DNA from: Knoellia locipacati
Lineage (GTDB): Bacteria; Actinomycetota; Actinomycetes; Actinomycetales; Dermatophilaceae
DNA: 64,000 nucleotides
Direction of reading: 5' to 3'
Assembly: GCF_007992835.1 (NCBI RefSeq)
Contig: NZ_BKBA01000001.1
Location: 1-64,000, forward strand
The translations under genes and the position numbers were made by a program. Under the pieces are notes generated by a model. That model saw only the letters and a program-made list of their open reading frames with translations, was not told the DNA's origin and ran no database searches. Within the stretch, counting starts at the first letter, position 1. Each line of letters starts with the position of its first letter. Positions 1 to 45,342 of this stretch are shown here, in pieces.

Positions 1-220
1 TCCTACGTTAGCAGCCTTTCGGCTGCCTCCCAAACCGGCTCTCACCGTCTTGGTCTTGCAGGGTCAGACCCTGGGACCGGCCTACTTCGCGCTGGGCCTC
101 AAGCCCTGCACCGTGGTGTCCGTTCCTCCCTTTCGGGCTGACATCGAGAACAGTAGAGGACATGTCGCCGAACTTCCAAATCGGCGCATTCGTGCAGGTC
201 AGAGGCCTGCGCAACGACAA
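1..220. other. Unassigned stretch with small hairpins
   Basis: No gene is convincing here. A short stem GCAGCC/GGCTGC lies at 11-26 and a 7-bp stem CAGGGTC/GACCCTG at 59-73. A weak 70-codon minus-strand frame (8-220) has no recognisable domain and no clear ribosome-binding site. The run of small stems could belong to a structured RNA or leader continuing to the left of the window, but I could not match it to a known RNA family. Confidence 0.3.
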
Positions 221-263
221 CGGCCCCGTTCCCCGCGACGACGAGTCGCGAAGAACGGGGCCG
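221..263 (-). terminator. leuS terminator hairpin
   Basis: An 11-bp perfect stem (CGGCCCCGTTC at 221-231, GAACGGGGCCG at 253-263) contains an inner stem CGCGAC/GTCGCG. It lies 18 bp past the leuS stop. There is no strong U-tract, as is common in high-GC actinobacteria. Confidence 0.75.
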
Positions 264-281
264 AAGACCCGCTCAGCAGCG

Positions 282-3197
<2,916 letters not shown>

Positions 3198-3241
3198 CTC
3201 ATCCTTGCCTCATCGGTGTCCTCAGACATGGGCTGCCCACG

Positions 3242-3267
3242 AAAAAACCCCTCGCGCAGGAGGGGTT
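3242..3267 (-). terminator. Rho-independent terminator after DUF4396 gene
   Basis: Read on the minus strand, an 8-bp stem AACCCCTC/GAGGGGTT with a 6-nt loop is followed by TTTTTT. It is one of the few classical U-tract terminators in the window and separates the DUF4396 gene from leuS. Confidence 0.8.
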
Positions 3268-3372
3268 GGCCGCGGTGACGTCCGGGTCGGACGGTCAGCG
3301 CGGCTGCGGAAGAAGCTGCAGCCCTGCCATGCGTGCAGGGTATCGCAGCACCGTCCCTCGTCTGCGGGTCGC

Positions 3373-3861
3373 TCAGTGGTGGTACTGGTGGACGACGGCG
3401 TGCCCCTTGCCCCGGCCGATGAGCCACCGGTTGACCGGCACCGTGACGACGAAGGCCACCGCGAGCGCGAAGGCCAGCGAGCCCCAGAACAGCCAGCTGC
3501 CCAGGCCGGCGTCCATGGCGCCGGGGACGACGAGGACGACGAGGTTGTCGATGACCTCCATGACGGTGATCGAGACCGTGTCGGCGGCGAAGGCGACACC
3601 GAGGGCGGTGGCGAGCGGCACTCCGGCGCGGAGCACCGGGGTGATCGTCACGCCGTAGCCGAAGACGAACGCGAGCACGACGGCCAGGACGATCGTCGTC
3701 AGGGTGGACAGGCCGAGCGCGGTGCCGATCGCCAGCCCCAGGACCTCGCCGATGGCGCACCCCGTGAGGCAGTGCAGCGTGGCGCTCGCTGCCTGGGACC
3801 AGCTGCCCGTCAAGGGCTGCTGGTGGGTGTGCTCGTGCGCATGTGGCGTAGGACTGCTCAT
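3373..3861 (-). CDS. DUF4396 integral membrane protein
   Basis: The 162-residue protein starts at MSSPTPHAHEHTHQQ. The upstream in-frame ATG at 3885 is rejected because it lies inside the operator-like palindrome. The His-rich N terminus (HAHEHTH) is followed by HCLTGCAIGEVLG and four hydrophobic segments, matching my recollection of the DUF4396 family, whose members often sit in copper or other metal loci. The C terminus is His-containing (HAVVHQYHH). The function is unknown. The His-rich end, a conserved Cys and the CsoR-like operator together suggest a role in metal handling, which is inference. It diverges from the methyltransferase-like gene at 3914. Confidence 0.75.
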   Translation of the reverse strand: MSSPTPHAHEHTHQQPLTGSWSQAASATLHCLTGCAIGEVLGLAIGTALGLSTLTTIVLAVVLAFVFGYGVTITPVLRAGVPLATALGVAFAADTVSITVMEVIDNLVVLVVPGAMDAGLGSWLFWGSLAFALAVAFVVTVPVNRWLIGRGKGHAVVHQYHH

Positions 3862-4409: not shown

Positions 4410-5204
4410 TCAGAGCCGCTCGCGCAGCCAGGCGAAGTCGGCCTTGTGCTCGTCGGCGCCGCCGGGGGTCTCGCAGACCACCGGCGCACCGGCCGAGCGG
4501 ACGACCCCGGCGAGGAGGTCGGCGTCGATCTCGCCCGCGCCGAAGTTGGCGTGGCGGTCGGCGCCGGAGTCGAAGGCGTCGCGGCTGTCGTTGCAGTGGA
4601 CGAGGTCGATCCGGCCGGTGATCGCGAGGACGTCGTCGACGACGGTGTCGAGCGCGTTGCCGCCCGCGTGCGCGTGACAGGTGTCGAGGCAGAACCCGAC
4701 CTGGTCGGCCTGCGAGGCGGACCCGATGGCGTCCCACACCTTGGCGATGCGGTCGAGGTAGCGGGCCATGGCGTTGTCACCACCGGCGGTGTTCTCGAGG
4801 AGCAGCGGCAGCTTGAGGTCGGTCGCCTCGACGGCCTTGCGCCAGTTGTCGAAGCCGACCTCCGGGTCGTCCCCCTTGCCGACGTGACCACCGTGGACGA
4901 TGAGGCCCTTGGCCCCGATCGAGGCCGCCGCGTCGACGTGCTGCTGGAGCAGCTTGCGCGACGGGATCCGGATGCGGTTGTTGGTCGTCGCCACGTTGAT
5001 GACGTAGGGCGCATGGACGTAGAGGGCGACCCCGGCGGCCTCGGCGTCGGCACGAAGACCGTCGGCTCCCCCGGCATACCGAATCTCCGGGCCCTTGTAG
5101 CCCTGGGGGTCGCCGAGGAAGAACTGGACGAGCGTCGTCCCGCGGGCCGCGGCCTCCGCGAGGGGGTCGGTCTGGTCGACGTGGGCTCCGATGGTCAGCG
5201 ACAT
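4410..5204 (-). CDS. nfo: Endonuclease IV (AP endonuclease)
   Basis: TIM-barrel AP endonuclease that incises DNA at abasic sites in base excision repair, using a trinuclear zinc site. The protein has 264 residues, near the family's usual 260-285. Metal-ligand motifs are clear: KGLIVHGGHVG, LENTAGGDN, CLDTCHAHAGG and VHCNDSRDAFDSGADRH followed by GAGEI. The start MSLTIGAHV is the ATG at 5204; longer readings of this frame are antisense to the oxidase. It lies 10 bp downstream of the monooxygenase gene on the same strand and could be co-transcribed with it. A second base-excision enzyme, tag, lies about 6 kb away on the other strand. Confidence 0.95.
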   Translation of the reverse strand: MSLTIGAHVDQTDPLAEAAARGTTLVQFFLGDPQGYKGPEIRYAGGADGLRADAEAAGVALYVHAPYVINVATTNNRIRIPSRKLLQQHVDAAASIGAKGLIVHGGHVGKGDDPEVGFDNWRKAVEATDLKLPLLLENTAGGDNAMARYLDRIAKVWDAIGSASQADQVGFCLDTCHAHAGGNALDTVVDDVLAITGRIDLVHCNDSRDAFDSGADRHANFGAGEIDADLLAGVVRSAGAPVVCETPGGADEHKADFAWLRERL

Positions 5205-5214
5205 GCCGACCAGT

Positions 5215-6711
5215 CTAGGAAGCCCCACCGTCAGCCGGGGCGAGCGCCGGGGTCCGCACCGGGAGTGCCGCGAACGCCAGCGTGCCGTCGTCGACCCGCC
5301 GCGGCGACATGAGCCGGAGGTCGTGGAAGTAGTTCTGGCGGACGGTCCACGGCGCGCGGACACCCTGCTTGGGCAGGAGGTGGCGGGCGCGCTCGACATA
5401 GCCCGAGGACAGCTCGAAGGGCGGCGTCCCCTCCTCGAGGTCGGTGTCGAGGACAGGGGTGGCCGTCGCCGTCCCCGTGTCGCGGAGGTGCGCGAGCACC
5501 GCACAGACGAACCGCGACGTGAGGTCGGCACGCAGGGTCCACGAGTTGTTCGTGTAGCCCAGGCATACGGCGAGGTTGGGCACCCCGCCGAACATCGCGC
5601 CCTTGTAGAAGAAGCGGTCGCTGGGCGCGAAGGTCTCACCGTCGACGGCGAACCGGATGCCGCCCGCGACCTCGACCCGGAGCCCGGTCGCCGTGACGAC
5701 GGCGTCGGCCTCGAGCTCCTCACCGCCGGTGAGCCGGATCCCGGTCCGGGTGAAGGTGTCGACGGTGTCGGTGACGACCGAGACCTCACCCGAGCGCATC
5801 GCCGAGAAGAAGTCGCCGTCGGGGACGACGCACAGGCGCTGGTCCCAGGGGTCGTAGGTGGGGGTGAAGTGCTGCCGCACGGCGTCGGCGCCGACCAGAG
5901 CGGTGTTGAGCCGGGCGAGCCCCTTGCGGACCGTCCCGGGGAAGCGCTTCGACAGCTCGTAGAGCCCGACGTTCTGGACGACGTTCTTGGCGCGGATGAC
6001 CCGCAGCGCGGCCCGCTCCGGCAGCACCCGGCGCACACCGTCGCCGATCCGGTCGCGGCCGGGCAGCGGGAGGATGTAGGTGGGGCTGCGCTGGAGCATC
6101 GTCACGTGCTCGGCGCCCCGGTCCGCGAGCGCGGGAACGAGCGTCACGGCGGTCGCCCCCGAGCCGATGACGACGATGCGCTTGCCCTCGGGCTCGAACG
6201 CCTCGGGCCAGAACTGCGGGTGGATGATCGGCCCGTCGTAGTCCGCGCGCCCGGGGAAGTCGACGACGTGCCCGGTGTCGTAGGAGAAGTAGCCGGTGCA
6301 GAGGTAGAGGAAGGACGCGGTGTGCTCGACCAGGCCGTGCGCCGTCTCGGCCCTCACCGTCCAGCGGGCCGAGGCGGAGGACCACGAGGCCGAGACGACC
6401 CGCTGGTCGTGGTGGATGCGGTCCAGCACCCCGAACTCGCGGGCCGTGTCGCGGATGTAGGTGCGGATGTTCTCGCCGGAGGCCAGCACGTCTCGACCGG
6501 TCCACGGACGGAACGGGTAGGCGAACGTGGAGACGTCGGAGTCGGAGCGGATCCCGGGGTAGCGGAAGAGGTCCCACGTGCCCCCGCTGGCCTCCCGGGA
6601 CTCGAGGACGGCGAACGATCGGTCGGGGGCCAGCTGGGTCAGGCGGCACGCGGCGCCCACACCCGAGAGTCCCGCTCCGACGATGAGGACGTCGACGTCG
6701 AGGCTGGGCAT
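5215..6711 (-). CDS. FAD-dependent monooxygenase, EthA-like (Baeyer-Villiger type)
   Basis: The 498-residue flavoprotein begins with an FAD Rossmann motif (VLIVGAGLSGVGAA) and has GTWDLFRYPGIRSDSD, typical of EthA-like class B monooxygenases. A Baeyer-Villiger fingerprint-like segment ends in IHPQFWP and is followed by the NADPH-binding VVIGSGATAV. Members use NADPH and O2 to oxygenate ketones or sulfur/nitrogen centres; M. tuberculosis EthA activates ethionamide. The ATG at 6711 has AGGAG 4 nt upstream. No adjacent EthR-like TetR regulator is seen. The physiological substrate cannot be read from the sequence. Confidence 0.88.
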   Translation of the reverse strand: MPSLDVDVLIVGAGLSGVGAACRLTQLAPDRSFAVLESREASGGTWDLFRYPGIRSDSDVSTFAYPFRPWTGRDVLASGENIRTYIRDTAREFGVLDRIHHDQRVVSASWSSASARWTVRAETAHGLVEHTASFLYLCTGYFSYDTGHVVDFPGRADYDGPIIHPQFWPEAFEPEGKRIVVIGSGATAVTLVPALADRGAEHVTMLQRSPTYILPLPGRDRIGDGVRRVLPERAALRVIRAKNVVQNVGLYELSKRFPGTVRKGLARLNTALVGADAVRQHFTPTYDPWDQRLCVVPDGDFFSAMRSGEVSVVTDTVDTFTRTGIRLTGGEELEADAVVTATGLRVEVAGGIRFAVDGETFAPSDRFFYKGAMFGGVPNLAVCLGYTNNSWTLRADLTSRFVCAVLAHLRDTGTATATPVLDTDLEEGTPPFELSSGYVERARHLLPKQGVRAPWTVRQNYFHDLRLMSPRRVDDGTLAFAALPVRTPALAPADGGAS

Positions 6712-6778
6712 CGCGCTCCTCCCGGTCCGGCTCCTGGTCAGCCCACATGCAACCACGCGGGCCCGCCCTCCCTCGACC

Positions 6779-9487
6779 TCAGGCGGTGGTGTCCTCGCGG
6801 GTGAGTGCCGCGGCCCGACCGGCCTCGAGCCGGGCGATGGGGACCCGGAACGGGCTGCACGAGACGTAGTCGAGCCCGGCGTCGTGGAAGAAGTGGATCG
6901 ACTCGGGGTCTCCCCCGTGCTCGCCGCACACCCCCATGTGCAGACCCGGCTTGGTCGCCCGGCCACCGGAGACCGCCGTGGCGACGAGCGCACCGACCCC
7001 GTCGGCGTCGAGGGTCTCGAACGGGGAGATCGTCAGCACGCCGTTCTCGAGGTAGTCGGCGAAGAACGCGCCCTCGACGTCGTCGCGCGAGAAGCCCCAG
7101 GTCGTCTGGGTGAGGTCGTTGGTGCCGAACGAGAAGAAGTCGGCGGCCTCGGCGATGCGACGGGCGGTGAGCGCGGCCCGGGGCAGCTCGATCATGCAGC
7201 CGATGGGCAGGGCGAGCTCGAGCCCGGCCGCGGCACCCACCTCGGCGAGGATCGCCTCCGCCTCGTCGCGCACGAGCTGGAGCTCACGCACCGAGCCGAC
7301 CAGCGGGACCATGATCTCGGGCCGGGGGTCCCGGCCGGCCCGCCGCAGCTCCACGGTCGCCTCGGCGACGGCCCGGATCTGCAGGGCGAACAGCCCGGGG
7401 ATCTTGAGCCCGAGCCGGACACCGCGCAGCCCGAGCATCGGGTTCTGCTCGTGCATCCGCCGCACCGCGGCGAGCAGGGCCACGTCCCGAAGGTCCGCGC
7501 CGCCGTCGGCGTCGGCCAGCGCCACCGAGACGGCCAGCTCGGTGAGGTCCGGGAGGAACTCGTGCAGGGGTGGGTCGAGGAGGCGGATGGTCGTCGGCAG
7601 CCCGTCCATCGCGTCCAGCAGCTCGACGAAGTCATCGCGCTGCAGCGGCAGCAGTGCCTCGATCGCCGCACCGCGCTCGGCCTCCCCCTCCGCGAGCACG
7701 ACGCGCTCGATGCACTCGCGGCGCTCCCCGAGGAACTGGTGCTCGGTCCGGCACAGCCCGATGCCCTCCGCTCCCCTGGCGCGCGCACGCCGCGCATCCT
7801 CGGCGGTGTCGGCGTTGGCCCGCACCCCCATCCGCCGGGTGGCATCGGCGTGGGTCATGACACGGTCGACCGAGCGCAGCAGCTCGACCATGGCCTCGTC
7901 ACCGCACGCCGCCAGTCCTGCCTCGAGCCCGTCGGAGACGTAGCGCATGACCGGCGAGTCGATGACCGGCACGTCGCCGAGGAAGACCTCGCCGGTGCTG
8001 CCGTCGAGCGCGATGACGTCGCCCGGCCGGAGCACCCGACCGTCCACGCGGACCTCACGGGCGTCGAGGTCGACGTCGAGCGCCTCCGCGCCGACGACCG
8101 CGGTCGTCCCCATCCCGCGCGCCACGACCGCCGCGTGGGAGGTCTTGCCACCACGCGCGGTGAGCACGCCGGTGGCGACGATCATCCCCTGCAGGTCGTC
8201 GGGGTTGGTCTCGCGACGGACGAGCACGACGTCGGCCCCCGCACGGGTGCGCTCGAGGGCCTCGGCGTTGTCGAGCACGATCTCGCCGACGGCGGCACCG
8301 GGCGAGGCGGCCAGCCCGGTGGTCACGAGCTCCTTGGGGGCATCGGCGTCGAACTGCGGGAAGAGCAGCTGCGAGAGCTGGGCACCGGTGGTGCGCGAGA
8401 TCGCCTCGTCCATCGTGATGAGGTTCTCGTCGACGAGCTGGGTCGCGACCCGGAACGCCGCCGCGGCCGTGCGCTTGCCCACGCGCGTCTGGAGCATCCA
8501 CAGGGTGCCGCGCTCGATCGTGAACTCGATGTCGCAGAGGTCCCGGTAGTGCGTCTCGAGCCGGCGCATCGCCTGGAGCAGCGCGGCATACGACGTCGGG
8601 TCGATCGTCTCGAGCTGCGCGAGCGGGAGGGTGTTGCGGATGCCGGCCACGACGTCCTCGCCCTGGGCGTTGGCGAGGTAGTCGCCATAGATGCCCGCGT
8701 GCCCGGTCGAGGGGTCGCGGGTGAAGGCGACGCCCGTCCCGGACGTCTCGCCGAGGTTGCCGAACACCATCGTCATGACGTTCACCGCGGTGCCGAGGTC
8801 GTTGGAGATCCGCTCGCGGCGCCGGTAGAGCCGGGCCCGCTCGGTGTCCCACGACCCGAAGACCGCCGCGATCGCCATCTCGAGCTGCTCGCGGGGGTGC
8901 TGCGGGAACTCGCGCCCCGAGGCCTCGAGGACGATCTGCTTGAACGCCGTCACGACCTCGCGCAGGTCGTCGGCGGTGAGGTCGACGTCGCTCGTGGCGC
9001 CCACGGCGCGCTTGCGGGCCTCGAGCGCCCCCGCGAAGAGCTCGCCGTCGATGTCGAGGACGGTCTTGCCGAACATCTGGATGAGCCGGCGGTAGGAGTC
9101 CCACGCGAACCGCTCGTCCCCGGAGAACTCCGCGAGCCCCTTGACCGACGCGTCGTTGAGCCCGACGTTGAGCACCGTCTCCATCATCCCCGGCATCGAG
9201 AACTTCGCCCCCGAGCGCACCGACACGAGCAGCGGGTCGTGGAAGTCACCGAGGCGCCGCCCCAGCGTGTCCTCGATCTCGCGCAGCGCCATCGTCACCT
9301 CGACGCGCAGCTCGGGCGGGACCTGGCCGTCACGCATGAACGCACGGCACGCCTCGGTCGTGATGGTGAAGCCGGGCGGCACGGGCAACCCGATCCGCGC
9401 CATCTCGGCGAGGTTGGCGCCCTTGCCCCCGAGCAGGTCCTTCTGCCCCATGTCGCCCTCGCTGAACCGGTACACGTACTTCGCCAT
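6779..9487 (-). CDS. ppdK: Pyruvate, phosphate dikinase
   Basis: Interconverts pyruvate + ATP + Pi and PEP + AMP + PPi in the cytoplasm, at the glycolysis/gluconeogenesis branch. The protein has 902 residues, close to the usual 870-900. The N-terminal nucleotide-binding domain carries GGKGANLAEM. The central swivelling domain has the phosphohistidine motif GGKTSHAAVVARGMG near residue 450. The C-terminal PEP-binding barrel includes GIGLCRTEHQF, IGCMIELPRAA, SFGTNDLTQ and GVCGEHGGDPES. The start has GGAG upstream. No PPDK regulatory protein (DUF299) gene is adjacent. Confidence 0.97.
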   Translation of the reverse strand: MAKYVYRFSEGDMGQKDLLGGKGANLAEMARIGLPVPPGFTITTEACRAFMRDGQVPPELRVEVTMALREIEDTLGRRLGDFHDPLLVSVRSGAKFSMPGMMETVLNVGLNDASVKGLAEFSGDERFAWDSYRRLIQMFGKTVLDIDGELFAGALEARKRAVGATSDVDLTADDLREVVTAFKQIVLEASGREFPQHPREQLEMAIAAVFGSWDTERARLYRRRERISNDLGTAVNVMTMVFGNLGETSGTGVAFTRDPSTGHAGIYGDYLANAQGEDVVAGIRNTLPLAQLETIDPTSYAALLQAMRRLETHYRDLCDIEFTIERGTLWMLQTRVGKRTAAAAFRVATQLVDENLITMDEAISRTTGAQLSQLLFPQFDADAPKELVTTGLAASPGAAVGEIVLDNAEALERTRAGADVVLVRRETNPDDLQGMIVATGVLTARGGKTSHAAVVARGMGTTAVVGAEALDVDLDAREVRVDGRVLRPGDVIALDGSTGEVFLGDVPVIDSPVMRYVSDGLEAGLAACGDEAMVELLRSVDRVMTHADATRRMGVRANADTAEDARRARARGAEGIGLCRTEHQFLGERRECIERVVLAEGEAERGAAIEALLPLQRDDFVELLDAMDGLPTTIRLLDPPLHEFLPDLTELAVSVALADADGGADLRDVALLAAVRRMHEQNPMLGLRGVRLGLKIPGLFALQIRAVAEATVELRRAGRDPRPEIMVPLVGSVRELQLVRDEAEAILAEVGAAAGLELALPIGCMIELPRAALTARRIAEAADFFSFGTNDLTQTTWGFSRDDVEGAFFADYLENGVLTISPFETLDADGVGALVATAVSGGRATKPGLHMGVCGEHGGDPESIHFFHDAGLDYVSCSPFRVPIARLEAGRAAALTREDTTA

Positions 9488-37035: not shown

Positions 37036-37638
37036 ATGAGCCTGTCCGACCCGGGACCTCCCGACGCCGCGAGCGCCGCTGCACGCCTGCGCTTCGAGAC
37101 GGTCTACGACGCGACGTATGCCGCGGTGCTGCGTTTCGCGCAGCGGCGCGTCCACCCGTCGCACGCCGAGGACGTGGCCGCCGACGTGTTCGTCGTCGCG
37201 TGGCGGCGGATCGCCGACGTGCCGCGCGAGCCCGACGAGGCGCGGGCGTGGCTGTTCGGGGTGGCCCGACGGCTGCTCCTGGCCAGCCAGCGTGCGGACC
37301 AGCGCCGGCACGCCCTCACCCTGCGGATCGCGGACGACCAGGTCACCGGGCGGCTCGGCTCCGGCGTCGACGCCGACCTCGTGCTCCACCACGTCGACCT
37401 CGCCCGGGCCTGGCGGCTGCTCAGCCCCGTGCACCAGGAGAGCCTCGCTCTTGTCGTCTGGGACGACCTCACCTCGCCCCAGGCGGCGGAGGTGCTCGGC
37501 ATCTCGGCGGTGGCCTTCCGGCTCAGGCTGAGCCGGGCCCGGCGGGCGCTGCGACGCCACCTCGAGCCCGGCACCTCACCCACCACCACCACCACCACCA
37601 CCACCACGGACCGCGCCCAGCAGAGGAGCACCCGATGA
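37036..37638 (+). CDS. ECF-type RNA polymerase sigma factor
   Basis: The 200-residue sigma-70 family member contains region 2 (YDATYAAVLRFAQRRVHPSHAEDVAADVFVVAWRRIADVP) and region 4 (LSPVHQESLALVVWDDLTSPQAAEVLGISAVAFRLRLSRARRALRRHL). It activates an unknown regulon. Its C terminus is a poly-Thr run encoded by nine CAC/ACC repeats. The stop overlaps the next gene (ATGA), which encodes a membrane-anchored protein in the place normally held by an anti-sigma factor. AGAGGAG lies in its 3' end and serves the next gene. Confidence 0.92.
   Translation: MSLSDPGPPDAASAAARLRFETVYDATYAAVLRFAQRRVHPSHAEDVAADVFVVAWRRIADVPREPDEARAWLFGVARRLLLASQRADQRRHALTLRIADDQVTGRLGSGVDADLVLHHVDLARAWRLLSPVHQESLALVVWDDLTSPQAAEVLGISAVAFRLRLSRARRALRRHLEPGTSPTTTTTTTTTDRAQQRSTR
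37581..37607 (+). repeat. (CAC)9 trinucleotide microsatellite
   Basis: Nine perfect CAC units inside the 3' end of the sigma factor gene, read as consecutive Thr. The run is 28 bp before the start of the coupled membrane protein gene. Unit gain or loss would keep the frame but alter the tail length and the distance to the next start. Confidence 0.9.
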
Positions 37639-39301: not shown

Positions 39302-39667
39302 ATGGTTCATCGCGTGCTCGTGGTGGACGACCACGACGAGGTCCGGTCAGCGATCGCGAGCATGCTGACCACCCAGGGCTTCGCCGTCATCGGCGAGGCC
39401 GCGAACGGTGCCGACGCCATGACGATGGTCCTCGAGGAGCGCCCCGACCTCGTGCTGCTCGACATCCGACTGCCCGGTCCCGACGGGTTCGAGGTGGCCC
39501 ACCAGCTCGCCCGCCTCACACCAGCGCCGGCCGTCGTGCTCATCTCCAGCCACGAGGCACGCGTCTACGACCAACAGGTCCTCGGATCGCCGGCGGTCGC
39601 GTTCATCACGAAGAGTGACCTGAGCGGGGACACGCTGCGTCGGGCTCTCGGCGAGGTGACGCCATGA
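39302..39667 (+). CDS. Receiver-only response regulator
   Basis: The 121-residue protein is a single CheY-like receiver. It has the acidic pair in VLVVDDHDEV, the phosphoacceptor Asp in LVLLDIRLPGPDGF (near residue 53), LISSH and the conserved Lys in AFITKSDL. No output domain follows. The stop overlaps the kinase start (ATGA), so they are translationally coupled. Without an output domain it may act as a phosphate sink, a phosphorelay intermediate or a protein-protein switch for the neighbouring module. Confidence 0.88.
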   Translation: MVHRVLVVDDHDEVRSAIASMLTTQGFAVIGEAANGADAMTMVLEERPDLVLLDIRLPGPDGFEVAHQLARLTPAPAVVLISSHEARVYDQQVLGSPAVAFITKSDLSGDTLRRALGEVTP

Positions 39668-41229
39668 GGTGGCGTGTCGCGGTGGTCGGGGTGGTCTCCG
39701 TGGCCCTGGGTGTCCTGTCGGAGGGGGTGGGGTACGGCTGGGGGGACCCGCTGTTGTGGGCCCCCGACCTCGTCATCGGGCTCGTGTGGGCCGCAGCGGG
39801 GCTGCGCCTGTGGACCTCCCGCCCGCGCGCCGCGGCGCTGGCGTGGGGGGTCAGCGCGACCTGGTACCTGGGGAGCCTGCTGCCGATCGGCGTGTTCTGG
39901 CACCGGGCGCTGCTCATCCATGTGCTCGTGCTGCTGGCTGCCCCGCGCCCGAACCGGTGGGCACGGGTCGTGGTGCTGGGTGGCTACCTCGCATCGCTGT
40001 CCCCGGTGGTGTGGCGCGCCGAGGAGTCGACGATGCTCGTCGCCGCAGTGCTCCTCGTCCTCGTCCTCGGCGTCGCGCCGCGCGGCCGCGGTGCGGGGTC
40101 GCCGCTGACCCGCACGTACCAGACCTGCCTCGTCGTGACGCTCCTCGTGCTGCTCGTCAGCGCCGTGGTGAGGAGTGTGGCCACGGACCCGGGGCGGGGT
40201 GCCCTGCCCACCCTGCTTGCCTACGAGGCCGCACTCGCCGTCGTCGCCCTGGTTCTCCTCGCGACAGGAGACGCGGCTGACTCGGACTCCGTGGTGGACC
40301 GGGTGCTCGAGCTCAACGACGGCCCGGGGTCCTCGCTGCGTGACGCGCTGGCCGACGTGCTGGAGGACCCTGGGCTGGAGGTGGGCTACTGGCGCGACCA
40401 CGACTGCCTCTACAGCGATCTCGAGGGGCGTGCGGTGGTGCCACCACCGGCCGGGCATCGGGTGGCTCTGCCCATCGACCGCGACGGCCGGCCGGTCGCC
40501 CTCGTCGTGCATGCCGCCTCGCTGCAGGGTGACCCCAGACTCAAGGCGGCCGTCGCCGTGGCCACGCGGCTGGTCACCGCCAACGCCGAGCTCAGCGCGC
40601 GGGTCGACGAGCGCCGCGCCGACCTCGCGGCATCGCGGCTGCGCCTGGTCCAGTCCGCCGACGGGGAACGTGCGCAGCTGGCCGCACAGCTGCGTCGCGG
40701 ACCACTGGCCCGCCTCACGGCCCTGGGCACGATGCTCGATGCGGGTTCGGAGCCTCAGCCGCTCCTGGCCGAGGCGTTCGCCCGGGTCCAGGACGCGCTC
40801 GAGGACCTCGGTCGCTGGGAGCGCGGTCTGCACCCGCGCGAGCTGGACAACGGGTTGGGGCCGGCACTCACCAGCCTGGCCGGGCTCGGAAGCGTCCCGG
40901 TGACCGTCTCCGTCTCCCCCGGCCGTTTCCCCCGCGAGCTCGAGGCGGCCGTCTACTACGTCTGCGCCGAAGCGCTGTCCAATGTCGCGAAGCACGCGGC
41001 GGCCCGGCACGTCACCGTGGACGTCGCCCTGGGCGAGGACCGGTTGTGCTTCACCGTCGTCGATGACGGCTCGGGAGGCGCGGTCCCGACCGGCACCGGC
41101 CTGCAGGGAGCCCGTGACCGGTTGGAAGCCTTCGGTGGGACGTTCACGGTGACGTCGGTTCCGGGAGCCGGCACCACCCTCAGCGGCACGGTGCCGATGT
41201 CGCCGGAGGACGGGCCGGCCCCACCGTGA
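39664..41229 (+). CDS. Sensor kinase lacking the phosphoacceptor His (ATPase domain intact)
   Basis: The 521-residue protein has about six N-terminal transmembrane helices, then a small soluble domain (DPGLEVGYWRDHDCLY), then a NarL-type HisKA_3/HATPase_c region. In the DHp helix the usual ERxRIxRDLHDGAQQ appears as ERAQLAAQLRRGPLARL, so the expected His is Arg344 (codon CGT at 40693). The ATP-binding boxes are complete: EALSNVAKHA, VVDDGSGG and GTGLQGARDRLEAFGG. By the canonical mechanism it cannot autophosphorylate but could phosphorylate a partner. It converges with the DctP gene (38 bp). Confidence 0.88.
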   Translation: MRWRVAVVGVVSVALGVLSEGVGYGWGDPLLWAPDLVIGLVWAAAGLRLWTSRPRAAALAWGVSATWYLGSLLPIGVFWHRALLIHVLVLLAAPRPNRWARVVVLGGYLASLSPVVWRAEESTMLVAAVLLVLVLGVAPRGRGAGSPLTRTYQTCLVVTLLVLLVSAVVRSVATDPGRGALPTLLAYEAALAVVALVLLATGDAADSDSVVDRVLELNDGPGSSLRDALADVLEDPGLEVGYWRDHDCLYSDLEGRAVVPPPAGHRVALPIDRDGRPVALVVHAASLQGDPRLKAAVAVATRLVTANAELSARVDERRADLAASRLRLVQSADGERAQLAAQLRRGPLARLTALGTMLDAGSEPQPLLAEAFARVQDALEDLGRWERGLHPRELDNGLGPALTSLAGLGSVPVTVSVSPGRFPRELEAAVYYVCAEALSNVAKHAAARHVTVDVALGEDRLCFTVVDDGSGGAVPTGTGLQGARDRLEAFGGTFTVTSVPGAGTTLSGTVPMSPEDGPAPP

Positions 41230-41267
41230 ACGACGGGCCGGACCCAGGGCGAACCGGTCTCGCGGCG

Positions 41268-42752
41268 TTACCCGATCTTCGTGAACGGGCGCCCGGACCC
41301 GAAGATGGCCTCCACGAAGGTCGACTGACGCGGGTTGGTCGCGTCCTCGAGGTCCGAGAGGAGCAGACCCTCCGGTGTCCCCACCCAGGCAGCCGCGAGG
41401 GCTCCGGAGCAGTTGGTCTCGAAGCGCAGCTCCAGGCGCGTCGCCGTCGAGGAGTAGCTCCCCACACATGGCGGGAACGTGGCCCCCGGAGGCGGGGTCT
41501 CGGTGTAGACGCCTCCGTCCAGGGTGAAGGTCAGTGCCCCGACGTACTCCTTCGCGGACGCCTCGGGGATACCCGCGGCGACGAGCGACGCGAGCGTGTT
41601 GTCACGTCGGTAGGTGCCGTCGGGGATGAGGTTGGCACCAGCCGCAGGCGCCGACGTCGACGGCTGGGCCACTGCGCTCCCACACGCTGCGGGACGATCG
41701 CCCTCGGGCACGGCGACGGACTGCTTCAACCTGCCGATCGTGTCGATCATCGTCGCCGTCGCCGCGTCCTTCCTGAGCTGGACGTAGACAGGTGATGCCT
41801 TGGCCTTCCAGCTGGCCACGGCGGCCTGGGGCGCCAGCAGGGTCCTCCCGCCGGCCTTGCAGAAGTCGCTCGCAGCCTTGGCGTCGGTGGGCATCCCGGT
41901 GGCCGCCCAGGTGCGCGTCGCCACCGCGGCCTTCTTCAGCGCCTCCCGCTGCTCGATGCTGAGGCCCGCGAGCACGCCAGCGTTGGCAACGAGGGTCTCC
42001 ACCTTCGGGTAGAGGGTGACGTTCGCGGTGCCGACGGCAGGGCGCGGCAGGTGGAGGGCGGCATCGTACGACGACTCGGCCGCGCTGATCGTCCCGTCGG
42101 CGACCGATGCACCGAAGTCCTTCCCGGGCCCACCCATGTCGGTGGGCCGCGCTCCGAAGGCCTCGAACGTCGCGTAGCCGACGTCCGACCTCGGCGTCCG
42201 CACGGTGCTCCCTTCGAGGTCAGCCGGGTGCAACAGAGGGTCCCCGAACGAGAACGGGTGCCGCATGGACTCAGGGACGAGGGCCAGACCGGTCAGCCCG
42301 AGCGGCTCCAGGCCGGCCAGCATCTCGCCGGCCACGTGGTCCGTCACAACGGCACGGACGAGGGCGTCCGAGTCGACGAGGAAGGGGGCATGGAGTGCCC
42401 TGAAGGTCGAGACGCCCTCGGTGTCCCAGGCCCTCGCCGGGATCATGCCGAGGTCGAGCGTGCCGGCGCGCACCATCCGGGCCACCTTCTGGTCCCAGTC
42501 CGCCTGGTCGGGCCCAGCGGCGCGCCACCTCGGCTTGATGACGATGGCTCCGTCGGAGAGGGCCGTCACCTGTCGGGTGAACTCGGCGACCACTCCCGCT
42601 GAGAGGCGGTCATCGGTGTCGTCCGTCCCGAGGGTGAGCATGACGGGTGGTGTGGACCCTCCAGCCTTGCTGGGGCCGGCACCGGAACATCCGGCGAGTG
42701 CAGCGGCGGAGGCGAGCAGGACCGTCGGCGCGATGATCGAGAGTCTGGACAT
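41268..42752 (-). CDS. TRAP-type (DctP) substrate-binding lipoprotein
   Basis: The 494-residue lipoprotein starts at MSRLSIIAPTVLLASAAALAGC (lipobox LAGC). The main domain resembles DctP periplasmic binding proteins: EFTRQVTALSDGAIVIKPRWR, KVARMVRAGTLDLGMIPARAW, GLTGLALVPESMRHPF and FEAFGARPTDMGG. A C-terminal extra domain of about 130 residues follows (IPDGTYRRDNTLASLVAAGIP... FTLDGGVYTETPPPGATF ... CVGSYSS). No DctQ or DctM permease genes are present, so transport is unlikely to be its sole role. It lies between two kinases and diverges from the second (143 bp), fitting a ligand receptor. Confidence 0.82.
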   Translation of the reverse strand: MSRLSIIAPTVLLASAAALAGCSGAGPSKAGGSTPPVMLTLGTDDTDDRLSAGVVAEFTRQVTALSDGAIVIKPRWRAAGPDQADWDQKVARMVRAGTLDLGMIPARAWDTEGVSTFRALHAPFLVDSDALVRAVVTDHVAGEMLAGLEPLGLTGLALVPESMRHPFSFGDPLLHPADLEGSTVRTPRSDVGYATFEAFGARPTDMGGPGKDFGASVADGTISAAESSYDAALHLPRPAVGTANVTLYPKVETLVANAGVLAGLSIEQREALKKAAVATRTWAATGMPTDAKAASDFCKAGGRTLLAPQAAVASWKAKASPVYVQLRKDAATATMIDTIGRLKQSVAVPEGDRPAACGSAVAQPSTSAPAAGANLIPDGTYRRDNTLASLVAAGIPEASAKEYVGALTFTLDGGVYTETPPPGATFPPCVGSYSSTATRLELRFETNCSGALAAAWVGTPEGLLLSDLEDATNPRQSTFVEAIFGSGRPFTKIG

Positions 42753-42895
42753 GTTCCGGACCTTTCCTGGTGGGTCCCACGACCGTAGGGCGGGCGAACC
42801 ACGGCGCACATCGCGGAAGACCCGACATCGATCAGCCGGGGATGTGTGGCTGTCCACTATGGCCCCGGGTGGCAGGGCGGACCGATACTTCAGCC

Positions 42896-44644
42896 ATGAG
42901 TGATGCCGGCGGTCCTGCTGGCAGGGCGTTGGGCACTGCCGCTGCCGTGTTGGCGGGTGTCGCCACGGCCACGGTCCAGCTGTCCACCGACAGTGACCTC
43001 CTCACGACCCACGCGGCCGTGGGTCCCGCCGCGGGCGCGGTGCAGGTGGTCGCCTCCCTGGCCCTCGTGGGGGCGGGGCTCGTGGTCTGGTTCGGTGGGG
43101 GCCGGGGATCACCCGGGGTCGCTGTCCTGGGAGCCGCGGTGGCCTTCATGGCCCCCGTCTGGATCGGCTGGCAGGACGCGCCCCCGTGGGTGCAGAGCCT
43201 TGGGGCGCTCATCGCTCCGCTGCTTCTTCCCTGCCTCATCGACGTCGCCACGAGCTTCTCGACCGGAGCCGATGGGGGTGACCGACCCCACCGGCGCTCG
43301 GGACTGGTGCGGGTCGCATACGTCGTCACCGTGGTCCATGTCGTCCTGAGGGCGACACTGCACGATCCGTTCCTCGACCCGAACTGCTGGGCGGACTGCC
43401 GGGCCGACACCCTGCTCGTCCATCCGGCGCCCGACGCCGTTGCCGTGCTTGACCTCCTGTGGTCAGCCGCCGCCCTGCTGCTCGGAGCAGGACTGGTCCT
43501 CTCCTCGACGGTCACCGTGGCGAGGCGATCTTCGGCTGCGGTCCTCGACGTGGGGGTCGTCGTCACGGCGACCGCTGCCGTGTCGGTTCAGGTCGCTCGC
43601 GCCATGCTGTCCCCCGGCGCCGAGGACCCACGCCGTGAGGTCCTCCAGCTCCTGTTCGTCGTGGAGGGAGTGACACTCGTCCTCCTCGCCTGCGCCCTCG
43701 CCCGCTTCACCTGGTGTCGCGAGCAACACCGCGCATCCCTGCGCCGCCTCGCCGACGTGGCGAGCGAGGCTGCCGGCATCGAGTCGCTGGCGACCGCTCT
43801 GTCCAGGGCCACCGGGCTCTCCGACCTGGAGCTCGGCTACTGGGTGCCTGCGGCCGCTGGGCACGTCGACGCCGCCGGCCGGCCGATGCCGCCCGACCCG
43901 CACGGGCGTGACGTGTCGGTGCTACGAGGAGACGCCCCCGTCGCGGTGATCCGCAGCCATGAGGACCACGCGTCCATGGCTCTCATCGGCGAGGCACTCG
44001 GACCCGCGGCACGGCTGGCGCTCGACAACGAGCGTCTCCGGGTGGAGGAGGTCTACCACGTCCAGCAGCTCGCCGACTCGCGCGCCCGCATCGTCAGCGC
44101 GTCCGACCGAGCCCGTCGAGAGCTGGAGCGTGACCTCCACGACGGGGCCCAGCAGAGTCTGCTGGCGGTCCTGTATTCGCTCCAGGTGGCGGCCGCGGCC
44201 TCGCGCAACCGCGGTGACGACGCGCAGACGCGGGCCCTCGAGGGCTCCGTCGACGCTTGCCGCGCGGTCCTCGCGGAGTTGCGAGAGATCGCGCACGGGC
44301 TGTTCCCGGTCATCCTCGACACGGGCGGGCTGGCCGCCGCGCTCGAGAACCTCGGCGACCGGTCCGGCCTCGTGGTGACGGTCCAGGACAGGACTGTCGC
44401 GCCGCTGCCGAAGCCCGTCGCGCATGCGGGCTACCTGGCGGCCGCAGCGGCCGTCGCGGCCGCAACCGACTGCGGCCACAGCCGGGTCGACATCCGCCTC
44501 CATCACACCGCCGGCGAGCTCGTCGTCGAGGTCTACGGCGCGCCTGCCGGAGCGTACGTGCAGACACACGACCGTGTCGGTGCGCTCGGCGGACACCTGG
44601 TGCGCGACGACGAGAACCTCCGGGTGGTGATCCCGTGCGAGTAG
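42896..44644 (+). CDS. Sensor kinase with phosphoacceptor His but degenerate ATPase domain
   Basis: The 582-residue protein shares the layout of the kinase at 39664: multiple N-terminal transmembrane helices, a soluble domain with LSDLELGYWVP, then HisKA_3. The DHp motif is intact, ELERDLHDGAQQSLLAV with His415 (codon at 44138), as is ELREIAHGLFPVILDTGGLAAAL. The following HATPase_c region has lost its boxes: the N-box is Ala-rich with no Asn (LAAAAAVAAATDCGHSRV), the G1 position reads VEVYGAPAGAY, and the G2 position reads HDRVGALGGHL. It probably cannot bind ATP. It is co-translated with the LuxR-type regulator. Confidence 0.88.
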   Translation: MSDAGGPAGRALGTAAAVLAGVATATVQLSTDSDLLTTHAAVGPAAGAVQVVASLALVGAGLVVWFGGGRGSPGVAVLGAAVAFMAPVWIGWQDAPPWVQSLGALIAPLLLPCLIDVATSFSTGADGGDRPHRRSGLVRVAYVVTVVHVVLRATLHDPFLDPNCWADCRADTLLVHPAPDAVAVLDLLWSAAALLLGAGLVLSSTVTVARRSSAAVLDVGVVVTATAAVSVQVARAMLSPGAEDPRREVLQLLFVVEGVTLVLLACALARFTWCREQHRASLRRLADVASEAAGIESLATALSRATGLSDLELGYWVPAAAGHVDAAGRPMPPDPHGRDVSVLRGDAPVAVIRSHEDHASMALIGEALGPAARLALDNERLRVEEVYHVQQLADSRARIVSASDRARRELERDLHDGAQQSLLAVLYSLQVAAAASRNRGDDAQTRALEGSVDACRAVLAELREIAHGLFPVILDTGGLAAALENLGDRSGLVVTVQDRTVAPLPKPVAHAGYLAAAAAVAAATDCGHSRVDIRLHHTAGELVVEVYGAPAGAYVQTHDRVGALGGHLVRDDENLRVVIPCE

Positions 44645-45342
44645 TCGTCGCCGAGGACACCATGCTCACCCGCGCTGGCATCGTCCGGCTGCTCACCGAA
44701 GCCGGGCACGAGGTGGTGGGTGAGGCCGGCGACGCCACGGAGCTTCTCCGGCACGTCGCGCAGCAGGGCCCGGACGCCGTCATCGTCGACATCCGCATGC
44801 CGCCCACGCACACCGACGAGGGGCTGGTGGCGGCGCAGCAGATCGTCGATCGGCACCCGTCGGTCGCTGTCCTCGTGCTGTCACAGTACGTCGACCCCGC
44901 CTATGCCCTGCGGCTTCTGGAGGAGCGGCCGGAGCGGGTCGGCTACCTCCTCAAGGAGAGAGTCTTCGACGTCGTCGTCCTCGTCGACGCCCTGCGCCGG
45001 CTCCACGACGGGGAAAGCGTGGTGGACCCCAGCATCGTCAGCCGGCTGATGAGGCGGCCCCGCGCAGACGACCCGGTGGACCGGCTCAGCGCCCGCGAGC
45101 AGGAGATCCTCGCGTGCGTGGCCGAGGGACTGTCCAACCACGGCATCGCGGCGCGGCTCTACATCGCGGAGCGCACCGTCGAGGCGCACATCACCCGGGC
45201 CTTTCAGAAGCTCGGCCTCGTCGACGCTGCCGACGCGCACCGGCGGGTGCTGGCGACACTGCTCTACCTGCGTTCGGACAGCGAGCCGACGTCACCGACC
45301 CCGGCGACTGACTCGCTCCGCAGCCCACCGCCGGACGACTGA
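44635..45342 (+). CDS. NarL/LuxR-type response regulator
   Basis: The 235-residue protein starts at the GTG giving VRVVVAEDTMLTRAG, overlapping the kinase stop by 10 bp. The receiver is complete (acidic pair, phosphoacceptor in AVIVDIRMPP, LVLSQY, GYLLKERV). A linker is followed by a GerE-type helix-turn-helix (LSAREQEILACVAEGLSNHGIAARLYIAERTVEAHITRAF). It is the only DNA-binding output of the module and probably receives phosphate from His415 of its neighbour. Its stop codon lies at the start of a palindromic repeat. Targets are unknown; the divergent dctP/kinase promoter is a candidate. Confidence 0.93.
   Translation: MRVVVAEDTMLTRAGIVRLLTEAGHEVVGEAGDATELLRHVAQQGPDAVIVDIRMPPTHTDEGLVAAQQIVDRHPSVAVLVLSQYVDPAYALRLLEERPERVGYLLKERVFDVVVLVDALRRLHDGESVVDPSIVSRLMRRPRADDPVDRLSAREQEILACVAEGLSNHGIAARLYIAERTVEAHITRAFQKLGLVDAADAHRRVLATLLYLRSDSEPTSPTPATDSLRSPPPDD

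Follow-up and report, generated by a model that had tools for sequence, protein, structure and literature searches.

The locus described here raises the question of whether two neighbouring sensor kinases, each of which has lost one half of its catalytic equipment, could work only as a pair. Sensor kinases are usually treated as homodimers in which every chain carries both activities. In the window, by which we mean the whole stretch analysed, the first 64 kb (64,000 nucleotides) of the 80 kb contig NZ_BKBA01000001.1 of Knoellia locipacati (assembly GCF_007992835.1, GC about 72%, genome of 3.59 Mb in 19 contigs), two membrane sensor kinases, K1 (39664-41229, plus strand) and K2 (42896-44644, plus strand), belong to a group of five genes, whose order is a receiver-only response regulator (RR1), K1, a substrate-binding lipoprotein on the minus strand (SBP), K2 and a receiver-LuxR response regulator (RR2). 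Judging from sequence comparison, we consider it quite probable that K1 and K2 together constitute an obligate, trans-acting split sensor kinase of the HisKA_3 (DesK/NarX) class, K1 contributing the ATPase and K2 the His.

In Pfam, K1 matched HATPase_c (38.3 bits, cut-off 26.4) and no HisKA_3 match was obtained even up to an E value of 1, the acceptor site being occupied by Arg; K2 matched HisKA_3 (35.0 bits, cut-off 24) and not HATPase_c. Alignment to intact relatives gave the same picture residue by residue. Arg344 (codon 40693-40695, plus strand; LRRG for LHDG) replaces the acceptor His in K1, and the N-box EALSNVAKHA, the D/G1 box VVDDGSGG and the G2 box GTGL (GTGLQG), located at 40969-41103 on the plus strand, are all intact. 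In K2, His415 (44138-44140) is present in LHDGAQQ, and the HDGAQQ segment (44138-44155, plus strand) includes D416 and Q420 of the DxxxQ phosphatase motif; the N-box Asn, DDGxGG and G2 are all missing from the degenerate CA domain (44372-44635, plus strand), the fold of which is predicted to be kept. A preliminary description of the window had placed both kinase genes at these coordinates and had read the two losses in this way, and both the Pfam matches and the alignments confirm it. Six intact kinases adjoining RR2-like regulators (L053-L058) have both halves. A HisKA_3 kinase, defined by the His and the ATPase boxes in one chain, is found in neither protein and only in K1 and K2 taken together, and the domain architecture of CheA is absent, HATPase_c (K1) and HisKA_3 (K2) being the only such domains above the Pfam cut-off.

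Does the reciprocal loss recur elsewhere? The SBP was used as query, as a single protein against the 186 genomes of the family and then as a profile at wider ranks (overlapping sets of 186 family, 396 order, 394 class and 396 phylum genomes, and two other orders with 3 and 27 genomes), and one scan of named genomes (10 loci) was added. We found 23 clusters with both K1 and K2 in 18 actinobacterial genomes, 14 of them in 11 genomes of the family and nine in seven genomes outside it, including Asanoa hainanensis (L187) and Streptomyces olivochromogenes (L189), and two (G940, G999) that lie beyond the class of the window and within its phylum. The SBP occurs in all 23 because it served as the search query. 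Both losses are present in 20 of the 23 pairs, so that each partner has lost what the other kept, as the preliminary description had stated for this locus: the same split is seen in 14/14 family clusters and 6/9 of the others, and in the remaining three the His of K1 is kept.

When one further K1 (L179) and two further K2 (L166, L171) from broken-off contigs are added, the N-box Asn, the Asp and both G1 Gly are present in 24/24 K1 and the first G2 Gly in 22/24, and the acceptor His is missing in 21/24, with seven different replacements (Ala, Arg, Gln, Gly, Thr, Asp, Ser). Conversely, K2 has the His in 25/25, the DxxxQ Asp in 25/25 and the Gln in 24/25, and a K2 with the N-box Asn was not found among the 25. 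The complete DxxxQ motif occurs in 0/24 K1 and 24/25 K2; of the 31 canonical kinases aligned with them, 21 have the Gln. We also observed that in 14 of the 24 K1, six being near-copies, the place of the phosphatase Gln (D+4), by the lost His, is taken by Arg, which may touch the partner's phospho-site.

As a control, 35 distinct non-cluster kinases were examined, namely the kinases on loci L002-L059 that were fetched by similarity to K1 or K2, which are a subset of all matches (37 minus two cluster kinases of G027). His and N-box Asn are both present in 32 of them, and the combination seen in K1 occurs in none. The three exceptions are an apparently frame-broken kinase (L022), one with a locally altered N-box (L026) and one without both (L029). 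The L026 kinase (1345-2967, minus strand) has SVPLTKVSSEA in place of the N-box with intact D and G boxes, which may be a local frame disturbance. The L029 kinase (125-1696, minus strand) is a double pseudokinase, a relative from the same family, with neither His nor N-box, and an intact kinase is present on the same fetched locus.

Because the split recurs in 14/14 family clusters and 6/9 others, it is neither chance nor a sequencing error, and an error at position 40693, which the preliminary description had named as a danger, is ruled out. Pseudogene decay has one sign in its favour, the cluster G940b (L178), in which the SBP (2202-3763, minus strand) and K2 (5167-6843, plus strand) are each split into two reading frames (the first piece of this K2 alone entered the main count, and the second piece likewise has no N-box Asn). 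Against decay or error stand the many genera and the different replacements, mean dN/dS values below 1 and the predicted folding of the K2 CA domain; the recurrence already rules this explanation out for the cluster taken as a whole, and we regard it as practically negligible.

The two partners are also inherited together. The distances in the K1 and K2 trees correlate with r = 0.93 (23 pairs), and a value as high was obtained in 0 of 5000 permutations. Within the family, the SBP loci at E<=1e-40 are kinase-pair clusters in 14/14 cases (186 genomes). At the same threshold the outcome outside the family was mixed. In the order, G338 has a cluster and G537 a locus with just one kinase, which is intact; in the class, G649 and G711 have a cluster each, and G627 is represented by a short contig. 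In the phylum, G940 and G999 together contribute four clusters, the contigs of G1146 and G1173 are cut off, and in another five genomes (G914, G1033, G1104, G1111, G1201) no kinase was seen. Left uncounted were SBP relatives without a nearby kinase pair (L102, L103, L172-L177, L182, L183, L185, L188, L191), one SBP beside one intact kinase (L162), and SBP with RR2 only on short contigs (L165 and L169/L184); duplicates were also left out (L190 of G200, L192 of G198, L186 of G1146, L184/L185 of G1173). It could be supposed that K1 and K2, both degenerate, are unrelated, work with other partners and are neighbours by accident, since lone degenerate kinases do exist (L029, 1 of the 35 background kinases, without His and N-box). 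We hold this to be very improbable, given the mirrored trees of the 23 pairs, the presence of both partners at 14/14 family SBP loci and a decay that is reciprocal rather than random.

Conservation follows the same reciprocal pattern. In the 23 matched pairs the mean column identity of the His helix is 0.36 in K1 and 0.66 in K2, and that of the ATP domain is 0.51 in K1 and 0.32 in K2; when five near-copies are removed (one of six kept, 18 pairs), the values for K1 versus K2 are 0.33 versus 0.61 (His helix) and 0.50 versus 0.29 (ATP domain). The 31 canonical kinases have 0.49 in the His helix and 0.41 in the ATP domain, but they are more diverse overall (0.17 in the cytoplasmic domain, versus 0.36 in K1 and 0.31 in K2), so that conservation looser than normal can be asserted with safety only for the K1 His helix and the K2 ATP domain. 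The stronger statement, that each partner surpasses normal kinases in the conservation of its kept half, was rejected on the ground of this far greater diversity. Among six close clusters (15 comparisons, Nei-Gojobori), the mean dN/dS is 0.25 for the K1 DHp domain, 0.33 for the K1 CA domain, 0.21 for the K2 DHp domain and 0.41 for the K2 CA remnant; in the stretch from N-box to G2 of K1 (48 codons) the mean is 0.57, with one comparison at 1.15. The low value of the K1 DHp domain indicates that constraint persists there without the His, as expected of a dimerisation surface.

AlphaFold2 models were built from shallow alignments (5 sequences for K1 and 6 for K2) and reached a mean pLDDT of 64.6 (K1) and 70.4 (K2). 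The K1 model has 8-9 N-terminal helices, of low confidence there, followed by a soluble domain, DHp and CA, and K1 resembles the CA domain of VraS (4gt8; Foldseek E 3.9e-6, TMt 0.75, 25% identity). The last 90 residues of K2 are modelled as an alpha/beta domain (pLDDT about 72-87), and this CA remnant resembles the ATP-binding domain of DesK (3ehg; Foldseek E 0.005, TMt 0.65, 12% identity). A sequence search of the PDB at E<=0.01 retrieved ten relatives of K1, all in the CA region (DevS, VraS, DosT, DesK and others), and no relative of K2. From the predicted fold and the match to the DesK domain, K2 looks like a folded pseudo-ATPase.

We propose that K1 and K2 would dimerise via their DHp helices, that the ATP-binding domain of K1 would phosphorylate His415 of K2 in trans, and that phospho-K2 would hand the phosphate to RR2, with RR1 possibly serving as a phosphate sink or a second output. 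The phosphotransfer complex of DesK, as described in PMC5231405, is asymmetric, one CA domain touching the DHp helix of the other protomer, which offers a geometric precedent for transfer from the K1 CA domain to K2 His415. DxxxQ is the phosphatase motif of the HisKA_3 class, with a role in NarX (PMC3510030), and because it is kept by K2 alone, RR2 would probably receive its phosphate from K2 and have K2 as its sole phosphatase.

A different reading of the same residues takes K1 as an ATP-binding allosteric partner that does not phosphorylate K2, with K2 acting mainly as an RR2 phosphatase or as a relay charged by a normal kinase elsewhere. The near-complete retention of DxxxQ in K2 (24/25) agrees with it, as does the presence of other K1-like kinases in the genome (6 matches, K1 included), and in Corynebacterium a ChrS without its CA domain is reported to act with HrrS, the His of ChrS being dispensable (PMC9491836). 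However, the ATP motifs are invariant or nearly so in the 24 K1, a strictness unexpected for ATP binding without a substrate, and the His is present in all 25 K2, although a pure phosphatase need not retain it. We therefore judge the allosteric reading improbable and prefer phosphorylation of K2 by K1.

Several observations weigh against an obligate split. Three K1, those of G940a (LHDG), G940b (LHEG) and Asanoa (LHDG), keep the His beside a K2 without ATPase motifs, and in these three clusters K1 could autophosphorylate. The mirrored trees and the shared location are also expected from simple co-inheritance, and co-inheritance, not contact, is what they document. Discovery was guided by the SBP, so that pairs without an SBP would be missed. 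Moreover, K1 and K2 do not form two clean clades among all kinases: the 80-row tree shows 2 and 3 changes, and its starred branches require two or more for K1. In the AU (approximately unbiased) test on the 76-row tree a single clade was not rejected for K1 or for K2 (p 0.50 each), and the split may have arisen more than once. The core proposal of the preliminary description, an obligate pair of K1 ATPase and K2 His, draws good support from the recurring loss, the mirrored trees, the reciprocal conservation and the purifying selection. The test that it had suggested, whether the two losses always co-occur, fails when taken strictly, since the His is kept in 3 of the 23 paired K1. Of the two kinds of homologue that the preliminary description had set against its own proposal, a K1 with the His thus exists to the letter and a K2 with its N-box was not found.

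A staged loss fits these cases. DDG remnants and an Asp at the N-box position are visible in the K2 of G940a, G999b and G1146, and, together with the three K1 that retain the His beside an ATPase-less K2, they suggest that K2 probably lost ATP binding first and that K1 then repeatedly lost a His that had become dispensable. In a tree of the 24 K1 with the acceptor-site columns omitted, the most favourable rooting gives 5 His losses if the His was never regained, and among the 200 bootstrap trees used (of 1000), 156 gave 5 losses, 23 gave 4, 17 gave 6 and 4 gave 3; the number is rough because 10 of the 21 inner branches of the K1 tree are open (under 80). Such a process would resemble a ratchet: once one paralogue had lost its ATPase, the other no longer needed its His, and several independent His losses followed.

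Taking the points together, we favour, with some reserve, the broader view that these clusters form a distinct, phylum-wide actinobacterial class, in which an orphan TRAP-type lipoprotein would act on a hard-wired asymmetric HisKA_3 heterodimer made of an ATP donor and a phospho-carrier that is also the sole phosphatase, evolved by the ratchet with several independent His losses, and whose output could be switch-like or bistable. A bifunctional split kinase of the CheA3/CheA4 kind can be ultrasensitive or bistable, as argued in PMC3591291, and a switch-like or bistable output could follow here from the same design. This natural family repeats the dissection of a sensor kinase and has left intermediates, a full K1 with an ATPase-less K2. 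It thereby opens to direct test the sequence in which functions were lost, the geometry of trans action in HisKA_3 kinases, and the idea that split bifunctional kinases respond in a switch-like way. It also provides a sequence rule for finding further split pairs, a His-less ATPase kinase beside a His kinase without ATPase, which annotation with two ordinary 'sensor kinase' labels would hide. Multiple copies of the cluster occur in single genomes, three in G087 (L093, L095, L098) and two each in G197 (L094, L100), G999 (L167, L168) and G940 (L170, L178), so that one cell may harbour several insulated split pairs side by side.

Natural split kinases as such are already known. The system Rv0600c/Rv0601c/TcrA of Mycobacterium tuberculosis is composed of three proteins, with ATPase and His on separate proteins and whole domains separated. 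The statement of the preliminary description that a natural split pair had not been described was mistaken, as shown by CheA3/CheA4 (PMC3591291), Hik36/Hik43 (PMC7656254) and FasB/FasC (PMC12675982). According to PMC3591291, neither CheA3 nor CheA4 of Rhodobacter sphaeroides autophosphorylates alone, and the likeness lies in an ATPase and a phospho-His on separate proteins, the His protein being also a phosphatase; the same source puts the number of split CheAs at 11 and that of HisKA proteins lacking HATPase at 1556. That pair differs in being of the CheA class with whole domains missing (CheA4 has no P1, CheA3 no P3 and P4), whereas K1 and K2 are two membrane HisKA_3-type kinases in which all domains are kept and the motifs were lost by substitution. 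Hik36/Hik43 of Synechocystis is likewise described as a split histidine kinase and has a single regulator, Rre6; it differs in being a cheA homologue divided into two genes (PMC7656254).

Closest in logic, as likened here without a comparison of kinase class, is FasB/FasC/FasA of group A Streptococcus, in which two adjoining membrane kinase-like proteins are proposed to form a heterodimer of a kinase domain and a key His acting on one regulator; FasB and FasC gave heterodimers and no homodimers in two-hybrid assays, and the kinase domain of FasC is dispensable while its H246 is required (PMC12675982). They differ in that candidate His residues are still present in FasB and a HATPase domain is predicted in FasC, and in the parts of PMC12675982 drawn on here no conserved mutual loss is seen and no substrate-binding protein is mentioned. 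DesK/DesR (PMC5231405) and NarX (PMC3510030) share the DHp class and, as presented in these sources, differ in having both functions in each chain and forming homodimers. A HisKA_3 pair with recurring reciprocal motif loss was not found in open-access PMC, by title and the start of the abstract, among the matches listed. What is new here is therefore the reciprocal decay, together with the intermediates it left and the orphan SBP.

The gap of 1.7 kb between K1 and K2, of which the preliminary description gave only the length, is occupied by the divergent SBP gene (41268-42752, minus strand), which encodes a DctP-type substrate-binding lipoprotein (DctP, 78.6 bits in Pfam) with an extra C-terminal stretch. 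The lipobox Cys22 is invariant in 14 aligned SBPs, and the DctM permease is absent from 13 of the 16 cluster genomes searched (of 18); in the other three (G000, G150, G200) it sits on contigs other than that of the cluster. Since the Cys is invariant and DctM is missing in most cluster genomes, the SBP most likely has a sensory role and supplies the ligand-binding input of the system. A TRAP transporter operon was considered and rejected, DctM being mostly absent and otherwise on other contigs (DctQ was not searched). Tandem arrays of two to five SBP paralogues were observed in L169 (1-8302), L171 (6285-11761), L182/L185 and L183; the array shares its contig with K2 and RR2 in L171 and with RR2 in L169. 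With such arrays, the SBP may be the part of the input that diversifies.

The two regulators flank the group. RR1 (39302-39667, plus strand; Response_reg, 86 bits in Pfam) overlaps the start of K1 by a few bases, and the end of K2 overlaps in the same way the start of RR2 (44635-45342, plus strand; Response_reg and GerE in Pfam). RR2 is present in 21 of the 23 clusters (the two exceptions are loci cut short by the end of a contig) and RR1 in 17 of the 23, with the phospho-Asp intact in 21/21 and 17/17, respectively. Gene order and orientation vary, from RR1-K1, reversed SBP and K2-RR2 as in the window, to K1-SBP-K2-RR2 in one direction, RR1-K1-K2-RR2-SBP, and others. In addition, a sigma-factor-like open reading frame, so named by reading alone, lies at 37036-37638 (plus strand) of the window and carries nine Thr codons in a run near its C-terminus.

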